Assembly (NCBI GenBank): GCA_031276235.1
Contig: JAISNL010000051.1
Location: forward strand, 1-35,515
Length of the DNA: 35,515 nt
From: Prevotellaceae bacterium
Lineage (GTDB): Bacteria; Bacteroidota; Bacteroidia; Bacteroidales; UBA932
Reading direction: 5' to 3'
Positions 5,576-15,929 of the stretch are shown in pieces. Both the position numbers and the translations under genes were made by a program. Under the pieces are notes generated by a model that was not told the DNA's origin, made no database searches, and saw only the letters and a list, made by a program, of their open reading frames with translations. Positions within the stretch are counted from its first letter, which is position 1. Each line of letters begins with the position of its first letter.

Positions 5576-5959
5576 TTACTTATAACAGTAAACCATATCA
5601 TAAAAATCATGTATTAGATTGTTGGTGTATAAATATGCAAATATAGGATACTCTTCTTGTAGCCTGTAACGAATATAATCTGTGATATTTGTTGGAATTT
5701 CAATATCATAAATTCCAGATTTTTCTTCGTTTTCAATTTCCATAATAGCATTTTTTTCATCTTTTCCCAATCGGATTCCGTATAAATACGAATCAATAAT
5801 ATGAAAAATCATACTTTCCGGACATTCCAATATCGTACTATCAGACAAATATTTAACCTGTGAAGGCAAAATATCTCCAACTGCCATTGGTCGTATTGAT
5901 ACGCGTTTTTCTATCATTTTCCGAATTACAGATGTTTTTTTCAAAAATAAGTTTTCCAT
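5576..5959 (-). CDS. Hypothetical protein
   Basis: 127-aa ORF with no recognised family. Confidence 0.5.
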   Translation of the reverse strand: MENLFLKKTSVIRKMIEKRVSIRPMAVGDILPSQVKYLSDSTILECPESMIFHIIDSYLYGIRLGKDEKNAIMEIENEEKSGIYDIEIPTNITDYIRYRLQEEYPIFAYLYTNNLIHDFYDMVYCYK

Positions 5960-6171
5960 AAATTAGTAATTAAATCATTTATTTTATTGTAATTGCCTAT
6001 TCTTATACCGCAACAAATTCCTCGTTTCTCTATTAATTTTAGCTTAATTCGTTAATAATAACCTGCGCAAAAATTTGTAAATGCGGTTGATTTCACCTTC
6101 CTATCATATATGATTGCATGAAACAAAGGTAAACATTTTTTCTTTGCCACAATCATTTTTGATAGAAAGTT

Positions 6172-6390
6172 ATGAATAAAGAAGTTATTTTAGTAAAAAT
6201 AGGATTGAAAATAAGAGAATTCCGTAAAGAAAAAAATTTATCTATAATGGAATTTTCCGATAAACTTGAAATCGAATATAATAATCTAATAAGAATCGAA
6301 AAAGGCAGAACTAATTTCACTATCGGCACGTTGTTGAAAATTTGCAAAGCGCTTGATGTAAAACTTGTTGATATTGTTAATGTTGAGTAA
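6172..6390 (+). CDS. XRE-family helix-turn-helix regulator
   Basis: GLKIREFRKEKNLSIMEFSDKLEIEYNNLIRIEKGRTNFTIGTLLKICKALDV. Confidence 0.88.
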   Translation: MNKEVILVKIGLKIREFRKEKNLSIMEFSDKLEIEYNNLIRIEKGRTNFTIGTLLKICKALDVKLVDIVNVE

Positions 6391-6510
6391 ATCGTTTGGT
6401 ATCTGTAATTTTCAAATTTTTATGTTACTGTTATTTGTTACAGCGAATGATTTTAAAATGTCTGAACAATATTTTGCATTATCGCAAATTATTGCTAATA
6501 TTGCACAATT

Positions 6511-9315
6511 ATGAAAAAATTTCTGGAATTAACCGCAATTGATTTATACCGCAAATTTGGCAACAATCTTTCGGATATTACCGTTGTATTTCCGAGCAAA
6601 CAGGCAAAAAATTTCTTCAATAACAGCCTGTATAATGTTGCAGGACAAACTTTATGGTCGCCAAATTATTTAACGCTCAACAATCTTTTTGAAAGTCTGT
6701 CAACATTTAATATTGCCGATACTTTGCAACTTGTGAGCGAGTTGTACGAAGCGTATGCGGACAATACAAAAACCAGTGAAAATTTTAATGATTTTTACTT
6801 TTGGGGCGAAATGCTTTTGCGCGATTTTGACGATATTGATAAAAACATGGTTGATGCTCAATTATTGTTTCAAAATTTGCAAAATCTTAAAAAACTGCAA
6901 CATACTTTTGATTTTTTAGACGAAAATCAGCAAATGGCTTTGATGCAGTTTTTTTCCAATTTTTCGATAGAAAAACAAAGTGAACTTAAGAAAAAATTTA
7001 TAGAAATTTGGGATGTTTTAGGTAATATTTATCAACAGTTTCGCAAAAAACTGCAATCTCAAAATCTGGCATATGAAGGAATGTTGTTCCGCTCAATTAT
7101 CGAAAATAAAAATCTGAATGTCAACGAAACATTTAAATATAAAAAATACGCATTCGCAGGATTTAATGTTTTGAATGTCTGCGAAAAAGAATTGTTTCAT
7201 TTACTCAAAAAACATGAAAAGGCTTTATTTTACTGGGATTATGATGGATATTACGTAAGAAACAAAAATCATGAGGCGGGATTTTTTATGCGCAATAATT
7301 TATCTGAATTTCCGTCGGAACTTGATGCAAAAAATTTTAATTCGTTTGCCGAAAACAAAAAAAAAATAAAAATAATATCATCACCTACCGAAAATGCGCA
7401 GGCAAGATATTTGCACGAATGGCTGAATTCCGAAAAAAATATTAACGATTCGGCAGTTGTTTTGTGCAATAAATCATTGCTTTTGCCGATATTGTATTCA
7501 TTGCCCGAAAATATTTCGAATGTAAACATTACAACAGGTTTTCCATTGTCGCAAACGCCGATATACAGCGCAATCAATGCATTGATAGATTTGCAAATAA
7601 AGGGCTTCAACAAAAGCATAAATTTGTGGAATAAAGAATATATATTGAATGTTTTACAAAATCAATATATACAAACACTTTCACCTGAAATAGAAAACAT
7701 TAAAAAAGAATTGCTGAAAAATAACAATTACAGATGCGAGATTGAAAATTATTGTAATGATGAAATTATAAAATTTATTTTCAAACCGATTGATGATGCT
7801 TGTGAATTTGTAAGTTATCTTATAGAAATATTAAAAAATATTTCGCAAAAAAATACCGCAACCGATCAATTATACGGCGAGGCAATATTTCGCACATATA
7901 CGGCGTTAAACCGATTGAGCGACATGCTGACCGACAAAAAATTTGCAATAGGAACAAAAACGCTTTCAATTTTATTGCGCCGCTTGCTTCTTGCCATCAA
8001 TATACCTTTTGAAAGCAAGTCAGCAACAGGATTGCGTATAATGGGAATTCTCGACACGCGGAATATTGACTTCAAAAATATTCTTATATTGTCGGCAAAC
8101 GACAGTTTATTGCCTGTAACCGACAACGAAGCATCATTTATACCGTACAATCTGCGCCGTGCCTTTGGACTTACAACATCCGACAAAACAGATTCTATTT
8201 ATGCCTATTACTTTTACAGACTGTTGCAGCGAGCCGAAGACATAACAATATGCTACAGTACGGCTGTCGCAGGTTTGAGCAAAGCAGAGCCAAGCCGATT
8301 CATATTGCAATTACAGGTTGAATCTGATTTTAATACTCATTTATTCGATATTCAGTCTCCAATAAAATTGCCCGAAATAAAAGAAATAAAAATAGAAAAA
8401 ACGCCTGAAATAATCAGACTTTTGCAAAGTCAATACAGCAATCCCGAATCATATCTTTCGCCACGCGCATTGAACATGTTTATTGACTGTTCACTGAAAT
8501 TTTATTTTCATTACATAGCAAAACTGAAGTTGCCTGATACCGAAACAGACTCAATAATTTTCGGTAATGTTTTCCATAAAGCCGCTGAAATTGTTTATGA
8601 AACAATAGGAAAATTTAAAAATTCACACATCAGCGAATCCGATTTAAACAGGTTCATTGATAACAAGCATCTTTTGCAAAACATTGTTGACAGAGCAATG
8701 CAAATAGAAGCCAAAATTGACGATTCTCCTAATTACGGCATTCAACAGTTAATAATGCGCGATGTAATTGTTGATTATGTTAAAAAATTGCTTGAATTTG
8801 ATAAAACTAATGTCCCGTTTACGCTTTATGAAATGGAAGCAACGCTTGTCGAAAAATTCAATTTGGATACGCCTGTCGGAAGTATCAATATTTACATTGG
8901 CGGACGTATCGACAGAATTGACATAAAAGAAAATGTTTTGCGCGTTATAGATTATAAAACAGGAGGAACAAGTAAAACAATAAAGTCAATAGAAGATTTG
9001 TTTATGGCATCTAAAACCCGCAACGGATATGCTTTTCAGACGTTTTTATATTCTATCATAATATCAAAACAAAAGCCAGAATTTCACGTTATGCCATCAA
9101 TTTTGTACATCAATAAAAAATTAACGGAAACGGGTGATATTCAGATAAAATTTGAAAAAGAAAACCTGAAAGATATTAGACACATCGAAAAAGACTTTTT
9201 TAACTGTCTGGCTGAAATAATTTCAAATATTTTTGATGAGCAAATTCCCTTTACACAAACAGAAAATGAAGATTTTTGCACATATTGCAATTTTAAACAA
9301 ATTTGCAGAAAGTAA
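6511..9315 (+). CDS. PD-(D/E)XK nuclease family protein (AddB-like)
   Basis: SPRALNMFIDCSLKFYFHYIAKLKL, VIDYKTGG nuclease motif, C-terminal FCTYCNFKQICRK Cys cluster. Confidence 0.82.
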   Translation: MKKFLELTAIDLYRKFGNNLSDITVVFPSKQAKNFFNNSLYNVAGQTLWSPNYLTLNNLFESLSTFNIADTLQLVSELYEAYADNTKTSENFNDFYFWGEMLLRDFDDIDKNMVDAQLLFQNLQNLKKLQHTFDFLDENQQMALMQFFSNFSIEKQSELKKKFIEIWDVLGNIYQQFRKKLQSQNLAYEGMLFRSIIENKNLNVNETFKYKKYAFAGFNVLNVCEKELFHLLKKHEKALFYWDYDGYYVRNKNHEAGFFMRNNLSEFPSELDAKNFNSFAENKKKIKIISSPTENAQARYLHEWLNSEKNINDSAVVLCNKSLLLPILYSLPENISNVNITTGFPLSQTPIYSAINALIDLQIKGFNKSINLWNKEYILNVLQNQYIQTLSPEIENIKKELLKNNNYRCEIENYCNDEIIKFIFKPIDDACEFVSYLIEILKNISQKNTATDQLYGEAIFRTYTALNRLSDMLTDKKFAIGTKTLSILLRRLLLAINIPFESKSATGLRIMGILDTRNIDFKNILILSANDSLLPVTDNEASFIPYNLRRAFGLTTSDKTDSIYAYYFYRLLQRAEDITICYSTAVAGLSKAEPSRFILQLQVESDFNTHLFDIQSPIKLPEIKEIKIEKTPEIIRLLQSQYSNPESYLSPRALNMFIDCSLKFYFHYIAKLKLPDTETDSIIFGNVFHKAAEIVYETIGKFKNSHISESDLNRFIDNKHLLQNIVDRAMQIEAKIDDSPNYGIQQLIMRDVIVDYVKKLLEFDKTNVPFTLYEMEATLVEKFNLDTPVGSINIYIGGRIDRIDIKENVLRVIDYKTGGTSKTIKSIEDLFMASKTRNGYAFQTFLYSIIISKQKPEFHVMPSILYINKKLTETGDIQIKFEKENLKDIRHIEKDFFNCLAEIISNIFDEQIPFTQTENEDFCTYCNFKQICRK

Positions 9316-10381: not shown

Positions 10382-10477
10382 AAGTGATGAAAAATTAATG
10401 GACAATAATAACTCCTAATGTTGTTGTGTAGTGAAAATGAGATTGCTTTGTTACATTTTATTTGTTTTTCATCACTT
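10382..10477. mobile_element. Short MITE/REP-like element with 13-bp terminal inverted repeats, related to the elements at 32716 and 34461
   Basis: AAGTGATGAAAAA...TTTTTCATCACTT; the right end TTGTTACATTTTATTTGTTTTTCATC matches the right end of the 32716 element. Confidence 0.5.
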
Positions 10478-11449
10478 AACCGTATTCTTTTTTTTGTTTT
10501 CAAATATTTGCAGATTTGCGGTGTTGCGTTCCCAAAATACGCCATTTGAATATCCCTGTATGTTGCTGTCTTTATCGGCTATTTGCAAGCGTTTTTCAGC
10601 AATGCAGCAATATTCTTCGTTCATTTCGATACCGACATACCGCCTGTTCAATTTTTTGGCGACAACAGAAGTAGTTCCCGAACCGAGAAAAGGGTCAAAA
10701 ACAATTCCATGTTCTGGGCAACCGGACAATATCAGTTTGGCTATCAATTTTTCGGGTTTTTGCGTAGGGTGGTCTGTATTTTCGGGCATCGACCAGTATG
10801 GAATGCTTATATCATCCCAAAAGTTGGATGGACATGTGAGCCTGAAATTTCCTTCGACTGTTTCTTCCCAGTCTTTTGGTTTTCCGTCTTGACGGTATGG
10901 AGCGATAACTTTTCTTTTTTGCCTCACCGACTTTATGTCAAAATAGTAATCATTCACATTTTTCACTCCAAACCAAATATCTTCCATTGCGTTTTTCCAG
11001 TTGTGCGTAGCGCCTCTGCCTTTTTCTCGCTGCCATGTGATGCGGTTGATTACTGTCAGATTTTCGCTCATTACCTGTTGCAGCGCAGATGTGCATTTCC
11101 AGTCTCCGCACAAATATAACGAGCCGTTGGGTTTGAGCATCGACACGATGCGTGGAAACCATGAACGCAAATAATCAGAATATTTGTCTTGCGACGAAGA
11201 TTTGAATTTGAAGCCGTTAAATTCTTTGGTCAGATTATAGGGCGGGTCAATAATAATCAGGTCGGCAAACTGTTGAGGCATGAAATCAATAATATCAAAC
11301 AAATCGTTATTGATGGTTTTATTAATAATATTTTCCTCTTTGATATTGTTTACGCCTTTCAAATTGCACAGTTTTCTATAGAAATATACATATTCGGAGG
11401 ATGTAAGAACAATTGTTTTATTTCGGGGCGACTTCTCTTTTTTTGTCAT
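10472..11449 (-). CDS. Site-specific DNA methyltransferase (N6-adenine/N4-cytosine, beta-class motif order)
   Basis: IIDPPYNL catalytic motif before FDPFLGSGTTSVVAKKLNRRYVGIE SAM motif; HPTQKPEKL. Confidence 0.9.
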   Translation of the reverse strand: MTKKEKSPRNKTIVLTSSEYVYFYRKLCNLKGVNNIKEENIINKTINNDLFDIIDFMPQQFADLIIIDPPYNLTKEFNGFKFKSSSQDKYSDYLRSWFPRIVSMLKPNGSLYLCGDWKCTSALQQVMSENLTVINRITWQREKGRGATHNWKNAMEDIWFGVKNVNDYYFDIKSVRQKRKVIAPYRQDGKPKDWEETVEGNFRLTCPSNFWDDISIPYWSMPENTDHPTQKPEKLIAKLILSGCPEHGIVFDPFLGSGTTSVVAKKLNRRYVGIEMNEEYCCIAEKRLQIADKDSNIQGYSNGVFWERNTANLQIFENKKKNTVK

Positions 11450-12254: not shown

Positions 12255-12683
12255 TTATTCGTTGGACTTTGTCTTTTTTATATATTCAATATATTCCTCA
12301 AAAGTAACTTTGTTTCCTTCTTTGATAACTTCAATATATGAGTCTATTAAAGCATTAAGATTCTCTGCTGATATTTTATCTTCGTTTTCTTGTTCATTGG
12401 GTAATAATATGAGATTACTGTATGTTCTAAATATTGTTTTTCTAAATTGATCTGTATCAGATAATACATTGCGGATATATTTATTTGTTTTATTTTTGTT
12501 AAAGTTAGATATAATCCACCCCACAAGCACAGCTCCTAACCCTGCAAATATTGCATGCCCAATAGGATCTCTGTTTCTATAACTTTGCAATACAGTAATT
12601 GCTGGCGTAGATGCAAAAACTACATTTGATAATACAAACAAAAAACCGAATAAAAATACTGTTTTTAAAATAATTTTTTTCAT
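12255..12683 (-). CDS. Hypothetical membrane protein
   Basis: 142-aa ORF with an N-terminal hydrophobic segment MKKIILKTVFLFGFLFVLSNVVFAS and a second TM HAIFAGLGAVLVGWIISNF. Confidence 0.55.
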   Translation of the reverse strand: MKKIILKTVFLFGFLFVLSNVVFASTPAITVLQSYRNRDPIGHAIFAGLGAVLVGWIISNFNKNKTNKYIRNVLSDTDQFRKTIFRTYSNLILLPNEQENEDKISAENLNALIDSYIEVIKEGNKVTFEEYIEYIKKTKSNE

Positions 12684-13239: not shown

Positions 13240-15852
13240 TTACAGTTTCCATTGCAGCGGTACGCTTAATTTGAGATTGAAATGTCGTCCGATATTGTAA
13301 ATTCCATCATTTTTGTAGCGCGACAAATGGTCGTAATACGTTTTGTTAAGTAAATTGTTTGCGGCGACATTCAACATCAGTTTTTGCCTGTTCCATCTTA
13401 ATTCAAACACCAAGCCTGCATTAAGTAAAAAATAATCGCCTGTCGGCAGTTCGTATTCGGCAATGCGAGTTTGTTCAAACGAATAGATACATTGCAAATA
13501 AATTGAAAGTCTATTTATTGTTTTGTTCCACAAAAAATTTGAACTGATATTGGCATTTATCTTTTGCGAAGGCATTAAAGGCAAATCGTTGTGTTTGTTG
13601 CGTCCGAAAGTATTACTGTACGAAGCATCAATATGCAGCCAGTCGAGCGGATGAGGATGCAAATGCAATCCTGTTTCGCCGCCGTACAGATAAGCATCCG
13701 TTTGATTATAATAATATACAGGCATATCGTCTATTTCCATATCGGATGGTTGCAGATAAATATAATTTCGTATATAATTAAAATAAGGATTTATAAACAG
13801 TTCCAAATGTTCCGATTTATAAATCAGAGAAGCATCGAGTTGATAGCTATTTTCGGTTTTGAGTTGAGTATTTCCAATTTCGTAACGATTTGTTCCTTCG
13901 TGAGCGCCATTGCTCAACAATTCAAACATGTTCGGGGAGCGATAACCCGACGAAAAAGTTGTACGAAACGACAGTTTGTCGTTCAAGGGTTGAAAAATGC
14001 CTGTTGAAAAATTCAATGCAAAATACGATTTTGAAAATGACGGGATATAACCTTCTTCATCTTTCGTTCCGTGTTCTTTACCCGAAATATGGCGTCCATC
14101 TATGCGTAAGCCTGCCATCAGGTAAGCTTTTTCGGAATAGTGGAAATCGGACACTGCAAATATACCCATATCAGATGTGGCAGCATCGGGTATCAGCATT
14201 TCTTCGCCTTTGTTTTTATTGGTTTGATACATTCCCTGACTTCCTATTGTCAACGTCCAGCGTTCGCTAATACGCGGCGAATACCATTTTGCATTATACG
14301 AAAATGTATTCAAGTTCATATCCAGCGCGGCTGTGCCATCTTCAAATTCTTTTCTGCTGTTGGAAATATATCCTGCATCTATTTTCAATTTTGAATTATT
14401 GGCAAAAAAGAATGTATTTTCGGAACTTACCAAATGTGTAGTCAAATCTTGAAAAGGCGATAATGGTTTGCGTCCGTTGGAATAAGGTTCTTCTTCTCCG
14501 CCTTCTTCTGCTTCAGTAAGTCCGTATTTTTCATTCAAAAAACTGTATTTTAACGAAGTTATGAACTTGTCGCCCGTGTATCCCAATACTGTTTTGAAAT
14601 CGCCTGTGCGGAAACGGCTGTTGTTTACAAAATTTTTATTGCCATCGGTATAATCTTTATGCGTTGTATAGCCGCCGAACAAGTTCAAATGAAAACGATT
14701 TTTTGACAATTTGAAGGCGCCTGTATTTCTCAAGCCTTTGGTATTTGTGTTATATTCCGAACTTAAAACGCTTTCTATGCCGTTTTCTTTTGCATAGCGT
14801 TCATCAACAAAATAGAGAATACCGCCCAAAGCATCGCTGCCGTATAAAAGCGATACAGGACCTTTAATAATTTCAACCTGTTCGTATCCGTTTTCGTCAA
14901 GCCCCAAGCCGTGTTCATCGCCCCATTGCTGATTTTCAATTCTTAATCCCTGCGAAAATACTGCTATACGATTTCCGCTAAGACCGCGAATAACAGGTTT
15001 TCCTATTCCCGTACCTGTACTCCAGTTACTGATGCCCGCTACGTTTGTCAATTTTTCCGCAAGCGATAATCCGTTCAATTCGGCGTTATGATTCAGCGTT
15101 AATTTTTCAACATTCACCACGTTTTCGCCTTGCAATCGCGATGAATTTTCGGAAACTACAATTTCCTGCAATTCATGTATCGATGGTTCAAGCAAAATCA
15201 CCTGATTGATATTCTGCGGCGACAGCGTTCCCAAATAAGTTTTGTATCCTACATACGAAATCTGCACAAAAAGCGGTTGTGAAGATGTAGTGATATAAAA
15301 ATTTCCTGATTCGTCAGTATATGTACCTGTTTTCGTATCTGGAAAATAAACATTTGCAAAGGCGACAGGCTCGCTGGTATTTTTATCGGCAACTTTGATT
15401 TGGTTTTGCGCAAACATATTTGCCTGTGCAAAACAAAGCATAAAAATTATGCAAACAGTTTTAATAACCGGTTGACATTTTGCGCACAAACCCGAAATAA
15501 GATAAGATATTGACGATATGCTGTAGCCTTGCGGAAGTTTCGGCGCCGCAACAGATTCATCTATACATGTAACCGTATCGCATTTCATACAGCGAAAATG
15601 CAGATGATTGTCGTTGTGATTGTTAATAGAGCAGTCGCGGCAAAGAGCATAATATGTTTTTCCGTTTTCGCTCGAAATTTTATGCACTTTGGCATCATTG
15701 CAAAAGCTTTGCAGGATGCGGTAAATAGTAACTCTGTCAATTGAACCCGACAATTGTTTTTCGATATCTTCGTGGCAAAGAGCCGAGTTTGAATTTTCTA
15801 AAATACTCATTACCATTTGTTTTGTTTTGGTATTTCTTCTCTGTTTTTCCAT
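13240..15852 (-). CDS. Fusion ORF: N-terminal Fur/Zur-family metalloregulator (about residues 1-127), internal signal-peptide-like segment (about 129-149), carboxypeptidase-regulatory-like domain, TonB-dependent outer-membrane receptor plug and barrel (ZnuD-like)
   Basis: HEDIEKQLSGSIDRVTIYRILQSF winged helix, HFRCMKC and GLCAKC zinc CxxC motifs, then KTVCIIFMLCFAQANMFAQ, PVAFANVYFPDTKTGTYTDESGNF, VIRGLSGNRIAVFSQGLR, VEIIKGPVSLLYGSDALGGILYF, SSGYRSPNMFELLSNGAHEGTNRYEIGN; no stop codon between the two parts. Confidence 0.88.
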   Translation of the reverse strand: MEKQRRNTKTKQMVMSILENSNSALCHEDIEKQLSGSIDRVTIYRILQSFCNDAKVHKISSENGKTYYALCRDCSINNHNDNHLHFRCMKCDTVTCIDESVAAPKLPQGYSISSISYLISGLCAKCQPVIKTVCIIFMLCFAQANMFAQNQIKVADKNTSEPVAFANVYFPDTKTGTYTDESGNFYITTSSQPLFVQISYVGYKTYLGTLSPQNINQVILLEPSIHELQEIVVSENSSRLQGENVVNVEKLTLNHNAELNGLSLAEKLTNVAGISNWSTGTGIGKPVIRGLSGNRIAVFSQGLRIENQQWGDEHGLGLDENGYEQVEIIKGPVSLLYGSDALGGILYFVDERYAKENGIESVLSSEYNTNTKGLRNTGAFKLSKNRFHLNLFGGYTTHKDYTDGNKNFVNNSRFRTGDFKTVLGYTGDKFITSLKYSFLNEKYGLTEAEEGGEEEPYSNGRKPLSPFQDLTTHLVSSENTFFFANNSKLKIDAGYISNSRKEFEDGTAALDMNLNTFSYNAKWYSPRISERWTLTIGSQGMYQTNKNKGEEMLIPDAATSDMGIFAVSDFHYSEKAYLMAGLRIDGRHISGKEHGTKDEEGYIPSFSKSYFALNFSTGIFQPLNDKLSFRTTFSSGYRSPNMFELLSNGAHEGTNRYEIGNTQLKTENSYQLDASLIYKSEHLELFINPYFNYIRNYIYLQPSDMEIDDMPVYYYNQTDAYLYGGETGLHLHPHPLDWLHIDASYSNTFGRNKHNDLPLMPSQKINANISSNFLWNKTINRLSIYLQCIYSFEQTRIAEYELPTGDYFLLNAGLVFELRWNRQKLMLNVAANNLLNKTYYDHLSRYKNDGIYNIGRHFNLKLSVPLQWKL

Positions 15853-15885
15853 AAAATTTATATTATATAATAATTATTAATGCCA

Positions 15886-15929
15886 CAAAGTTACAATAAT
15901 ATTTTAATATTGCAACACTGTTGCAATAT
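15886..15929 (-). promoter_or_regulatory. Promoter with overlapping perfect palindrome (candidate Fur/Zur operator)
   Basis: ATATTGCAACA-C-TGTTGCAATAT (15907-15929); minus-strand TTG-N19-TAACTTTG with the -7 box at 15893-15886; the -33 element lies within the palindrome. Confidence 0.7.

Follow-up and report, generated by a model that had tools for sequence, protein, structure and literature searches.

In a group of gut Bacteroidales, a single gene encodes one protein in which a Zur-like DNA-binding repressor is joined to a ZnuD-like TonB-dependent outer-membrane receptor, so that the predicted zinc-uptake channel appears to be made together with the switch that would turn its own gene off. 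The gene occupies an 870-codon frame of the window analysed here, a stretch of 35,515 nucleotides that forms one whole contig of a 2.6 Mb, 183-contig draft genome of a Prevotellaceae bacterium. The same uninterrupted fusion is present in nine other genomes and all ten promoters carry a conserved palindrome, suggesting that the Fur domain acts as an autogenous, zinc-dependent repressor, although this function is inferred from sequence alone.

Domain architecture

The frame starts at ATG and contains no internal stop. A Pfam search placed four families above their curated cut-offs, namely FUR (PF01475; residues 4–99, 30.9 bits against 23.1), CarbopepD_reg_2 (PF13715), Plug (PF07715) and the TonB barrel (PF00593; residues 392–834). 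The Fur part includes the motif HNDNHLHF at residues 79–86 and two CxxC pairs (Cys88/Cys91 and Cys123/Cys126) and is followed by a signal-peptide-like segment (KTVCIIFMLCFAQANMFAQ, residues 131–149). The most hydrophobic 11-mer of residues 1–400 lies in this segment in all ten fusions, and Ala148 and Gln149 are invariant. The features and their positions are collected in Table 1. Directly downstream of the fused gene lies a 142-residue protein with a signal-peptide-like start, a membrane segment and no Pfam match, and a DNA N6/N4 methyltransferase (PF01555) is encoded further along with no evident restriction partner among the neighbouring open reading frames.

Table 1. Positions of the fused gene, its parts and neighbouring features in the window
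Feature	Positions	Strand	Residues	Basis
Whole fused gene	13240–15852	-	870 codons plus stop	same frame in nine other genomes
Fur/Zur-type domain	15475–15852	-	1–126	PF01475; nearest PDB sequences and folds 2o03, 3mwm and 7vo0
Presumed recognition helix of the winged helix (RVTIYRILQSFCN)	15697–15735	-	40–52	helix in both models; role by analogy with Fur proteins
Span of presumed metal ligands	15475–15684	-	His57, Cys71, His83, His85 (regulatory site); Cys88, Cys91, Cys123, Cys126 (structural site)	invariant in 22 Fur domains
Probable decayed start codon (ATT) of the once separate receptor gene	15463–15465	-	130	ATG or GTG in three deep members
Signal-peptide-like segment, likely cut Ala148/Gln149	15409–15462	-	131–148	hydrophobicity; separate receptors begin here
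CarboxypepD_reg-like domain	15154–15396	-	153–233	PF13715
Plug domain	14818–15078	-	259–345	PF07715
TonB-dependent beta-barrel	13243–14679	-	392–870	PF00593; fold match to ZnuD 4rdt
Perfect 21-base palindrome TATTGCAACA-G-TGTTGCAATA, presumed operator	15908–15928	.		conserved upstream of all ten fusions
-7 promoter element TAACTTTG	15886–15893	-		fits Bacteroidetes TAnnTTTG
Second, imperfect copy of the palindrome (16 of 20), overlying the -7 element	15878–15898	.		read from sequence
142-residue protein	12255–12683	-		signal-peptide-like start; membrane segment
DNA N6/N4 methyltransferase	10472–11449	-		PF01555

Conservation of the fusion

The first-pass annotation of this region, made from the sequence alone, had described a single-frame fusion of a Fur/Zur metalloregulator with a ZnuD-like receptor, and this observation is confirmed. 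It had proposed that a fusion confined to this strain, with separate genes in all close relatives, would point to an error or a private mutation. Instead, the same frame without an internal stop was found in nine other genomes at 56–87% Fur-domain identity, six of them in the same genus, one each in two other genera of the family (genomes G011 and G034) and one in another family of the order (G567). Three of these match the records JAISYZ010000240, JAISDB010000109 and JAISPX010000048, which are 'Prevotellaceae bacterium' MAGs of a series from termite guts. All are draft genomes (MAGs where named), and four of the 11 searched genomes of the genus, which are 69–85% complete, show no copy. No fusion was seen in a class-wide sample of 395 genomes searched with a lightly consensus-adjusted form of the window protein.

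The Fur part has no gap column across all ten sequences, and residues Asp39, Arg40, Val41, Thr42, Tyr44 and Arg45 in and next to the presumed recognition helix are invariant among them. Within the genus, dN/dS is 0.109 for the Fur part, 0.209 for the junction plus signal peptide, 0.172 for the CarboxypepD domain and 0.093 for the plug plus barrel, indicating that both halves are kept by selection as proteins. The fusion is thus neither a private mutation nor a chance open frame. The fused Fur is the only PF01475 match in the draft genome of the window, but most other searched genomes of the genus carry a second, canonical Fur of about 105 bits, and the fused protein is therefore not claimed to be the only Fur protein of these organisms.

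Origin of the fusion

Other genera of the family hold a 55–61% identical Fur gene as a separate gene. In many of them, in particular in the two genera labelled g10 and g15, its stop codon lies a few bases before, or overlaps, the start of a TonB receptor gene. In most cases this receptor belongs to another lineage (about 24–28% identical), whereas in G183 it is the orthologous receptor (about 60%), with the Fur stop and the receptor start overlapping as ATGA. In all ten fusions the last Cys of the Fur fold is followed by four residues, a Lys and a hydrophobic stretch ending in Ala-Gln, and separate receptors align from this point onwards. The codon preceding the Lys is ATG in G011 and G567, GTG in G034, and ATT, ATT, ATC, ATC, ATA, ATC and GTC in the seven genomes of the genus of the window. 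The simplest reading is that this codon is the old receptor start, lost in the genus of the window, where no usual start codon between residues 95 and 148 is shared by all seven genomes. There the receptor is probably translated only as part of the fusion, while in the three deep members two products could be made.

Two relatives look like broken fusions. G441 (locus L103, positions 6360–8768) carries the orthologous receptor (62%) in a frame that begins MKRRNTKTKQPVISILEDANPALCR and passes directly to ISYVTGSCRKCSGILKTIC, such that Fur residues 1–26 are joined in frame to the Fur C-terminus with about 88–89 residues of the core missing; the receptor is thus still read from the Fur start codon. 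In the reverse case of G117 (locus L075, positions 1957–2490 of the reverse strand; the same record as L035), a separate Fur gene ends in a signal-peptide-like tail (CQKCSSLMKTVLLFVLVFAGQNDF; LMKTVLLFVLVFAGQNDF) and a stop, directly before another receptor-like frame. G117 is the sister of the fused G034 in the Fur tree (99/96), and G441 is the sister of the fused G034 in the receptor tree (100/100). The receptor tree places all fusions together with G441 and G183 on one side of a branch, but only weakly (58/89), and the fused receptors alone are not a clade because G441 and G183 nest among them. A Fur tree in which the fused sequences and G117 are held together is disfavoured (p-AU 0.028). 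These results are compatible with one origin followed by losses or with repeated fusion.

Upstream palindrome

The palindrome TATTGCAACANTGTTGCAATA scores 18–20 of 20 upstream of all ten fusions and ends about 13–15 bases before a TAnnTTTG -7 element (consensus quoted in PMC7366714). It is also present upstream of the split pair of G183 (19). In G415 (locus L105), a divergent Fur gene (30%) lies head to head with a 42% identical receptor with two copies of the same palindrome between them (score 18). In contrast, 13 receptors without an adjacent Fur gene, including those of G441, G491 and G659, score 14 or less. Fisher's exact test gives p = 1.9e-7, but since this value is not corrected for kinship the contrast between the sisters G034 and G441 is the better argument. 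Separate fur genes vary: g10 and part of g15 keep the palindrome, the group g21 mostly keeps only the weaker copy over the -7 element, which is the best match in several separate-fur relatives, and some genes (G042, G125 and G156) have none. No other site with two or fewer mismatches was found in the genome of the window, so that a local regulator is favoured over one with a wide regulon.

Predicted structure and metal specificity

The full-length model (mean pLDDT 66) shows a winged helix, dimerization strands, a helix at residues 131–139, a small beta domain and a barrel, whereas the plug region is poorly modelled, as is the stretch 127–149. The Fur domain alone models well (mean pLDDT 83) with the winged-helix and dimerization-domain fold of the Fur superfamily. 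The plug and barrel assignments agree with the 22-strand TonB-dependent receptors in their Pfam scores and fold matches, without an exact count of the strands.

Both halves independently have zinc proteins as their nearest solved relatives, which strengthens the assignment made in the first-pass annotation. For the receptor, the best PDB sequence is ZnuD (4rdr, 2.8e-26) and the best fold is ZnuD (4rdt), with the copper receptor OprC next. The best-scoring NCBIfam model is also ZnuD (NF038289), but at 165 bits against a cut-off of 950. For the Fur domain, the best PDB sequence is FurB, the Mycobacterium tuberculosis zinc regulator (2o03), with Streptomyces Zur (3mwm and 7vo0) close but with iron regulators interleaved in the profile search, and the Foldseek search is led by 2o03, a cyanobacterial zinc sensor (7ne9) and 3mwm. 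The NCBIfam Zur equivalog (NF008646) scores only 17.5 bits against a cut-off of 167. The eight presumed metal ligands are invariant even in relatives that are about 30% identical, and their roles as regulatory and structural sites are assigned by analogy with Zur structures. The second regulatory site of Streptomyces Zur lacks its two His residues here (Asn82 and Leu84). Zinc is thus likely but not proven. Just upstream of stand-alone ZnuD-like receptors in other Bacteroidales (locus L059, positions 5759–6100; locus L107, positions 6347–6697 on the minus strand; similar in L109 and L110) a small His-rich, probably exported protein (HHHDHFHC, with a C-terminal LRAPP motif) is encoded, which may be a zinc-handling partner.

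Proposed function

The favoured interpretation, with a probability of roughly 0.65, is that the gene is a self-regulating zinc-uptake unit in one polypeptide. When zinc is plentiful, the Zur-type domain would bind as a dimer to the palindrome just upstream of its own -7 element and block transcription. When zinc is short, the gene would be transcribed and translated from the Fur start codon as one chain, the Fur domain would fold in the cytoplasm while the internal signal peptide enters the Sec translocon, and signal peptidase would cut near Ala148/Gln149, releasing the receptor to the outer membrane to import zinc. A signal sequence keeps its N-terminus in the cytoplasm, so a folded N-terminal domain is topologically allowed, as in single-span membrane proteins. 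The Fur domain with its hydrophobic stub would remain on the cytoplasmic face of the inner membrane or be released by proteolysis, so that each receptor made leaves behind one repressor molecule, which shuts the gene once zinc returns. However, a dimeric DNA-binding protein held at the membrane or on a nascent chain might bind DNA poorly.

The sequences themselves establish one conserved frame, selection on both halves, the loss of the internal start codon in the genus of the window and a palindrome that accompanies the Fur part, whereas zinc-dependent DNA binding and repression, zinc as the metal, zinc transport, cleavage and the location of the Fur part are inferred, as is every step after translation. 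That the fused gene is genuine and conserved is close to certain and its translation as one chain in the genus of the window is very likely, while autorepression by the Fur domain is likely and export with cleavage that leaves Fur in the cytoplasm somewhat less so. The interpretation in the first-pass annotation is therefore only partly supported: the conserved fusion, the ZnuD-like receptor, the signal-peptide-like junction and the lack of a previous description in the open-access papers searched hold, but its suggestions of cleavage at the internal signal peptide, a tethered or released sensor and a strictly 1:1 output remain inferences, as does any response to metal.

A more far-reaching possibility, somewhat less likely than not, is that the signal peptide is itself a transcription factor, i.e. 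that the cytoplasmic n-region of an outer-membrane protein precursor is a metal-sensing repressor and every export event deposits one repressor of the same gene at the inner membrane, coupling export to transcription one to one. DNA-binding repressors stay in the cytoplasm, whereas outer-membrane receptors cross the inner membrane through Sec. A conserved protein that joins the two raises the question of how large and how folded a domain ahead of a signal peptide may be and would offer a built-in one-to-one counter between a transporter and its own repressor. The relatives provide natural controls in the form of separate genes, the fused gene, a fused gene that lost its Fur core together with the palindrome (G441) and a Fur gene that keeps only a signal-peptide-like tail (G117).

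Alternative interpretations

The chain could instead be cut in the cytoplasm between Fur and the signal peptide before export, giving an ordinary soluble repressor and an ordinary receptor precursor. The stretch 127–149 may be flexible, and this route needs no tolerance of a large n-region by Sec. However, only four residues separate Cys126 from Lys131 in all ten genomes, with no gap in that stretch, and no protease site is evident; the cut would also leave the receptor without a start Met but still with its signal. This alternative is considered unlikely.

About equally improbable is that the receptor is mainly made by internal initiation near codons 130–138, the Fur stop codon having simply been lost and the fused chain being a by-product. 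In addition to the ATG or GTG at codon 130 in the three deep members, an ATG is present at codon 138 in six of the seven genomes of the genus. However, codon 130 is not a usual start in any of these seven, and initiation at codon 138 would give MLCFAQANMFAQ, without a charged n-region, and is not possible from an ATG in G004 of the same genus, which lacks it. The adenines at -3 and -6 favoured in Bacteroidetes (PMC6847099) are missing before the remaining ATG/GTG codons, and G441 keeps the Fur start codon although the Fur core is gone.

It is less likely still that the Fur domain no longer regulates and is a tolerated or structural N-terminal extension, perhaps a zinc-binding aid to export. 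G441 shows that the receptor is kept without the Fur core, but the purifying selection on the Fur part equals that on the barrel, the presumed DNA-contact helix and metal ligands are invariant, and the palindrome is conserved with the Fur part and lost with it. An assembly or sequencing error, conceivable in a contig of a draft genome, is refuted by the nine relatives with the same junction at the same place.

Comparison with known systems

Zur repression of ZnuD-type receptors, fusions of repressors with enzymes and long signal peptides are known, but literature searches, limited to open-access papers, found no fusion of Fur with a TonB receptor and no DNA-binding repressor serving as the n-region of the signal peptide of an outer-membrane protein. 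The protein combines known elements in an arrangement for which these searches found no description, with a real chance that it is without precedent.

In Neisseria and other organisms, a zinc-responsive Fur-family repressor likewise acts on a TonB-dependent zinc receptor (PMC2895646, PMC4557270), but the repressor is a free cytoplasmic protein, whereas here it is translated as the N-terminus of the receptor and neither half passes the NCBIfam cut-off of the named family. The adjacent Fur and TonB receptor genes in other genera of the same family (G019, G183 and others) encode the same Fur subfamily, often with the same palindrome and with the stop of one gene at the start of the other, but they are two reading frames with a stop between them and the receptor is usually of another lineage. 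Trifunctional PutA (PMC5293562) is an autogenous repressor in which a DNA-binding domain is fused to the product of the gene it represses, in that case a membrane-associated enzyme, but the domain is a ribbon-helix-helix and the protein stays in the cell as one chain and is not exported. Membrane-tethered one-component regulators of the ToxR/CadC type also have a cytoplasmic DNA-binding domain followed by a membrane segment, but their periplasmic part is a sensor that stays attached, whereas here the segment is a likely cleaved signal peptide of an outer-membrane protein. Finally, the long signal peptides of autotransporters (PMC2805444) similarly place an extra N-terminal region ahead of the Sec signal peptide of an outer-membrane protein, but those extensions are short and are not DNA-binding domains.
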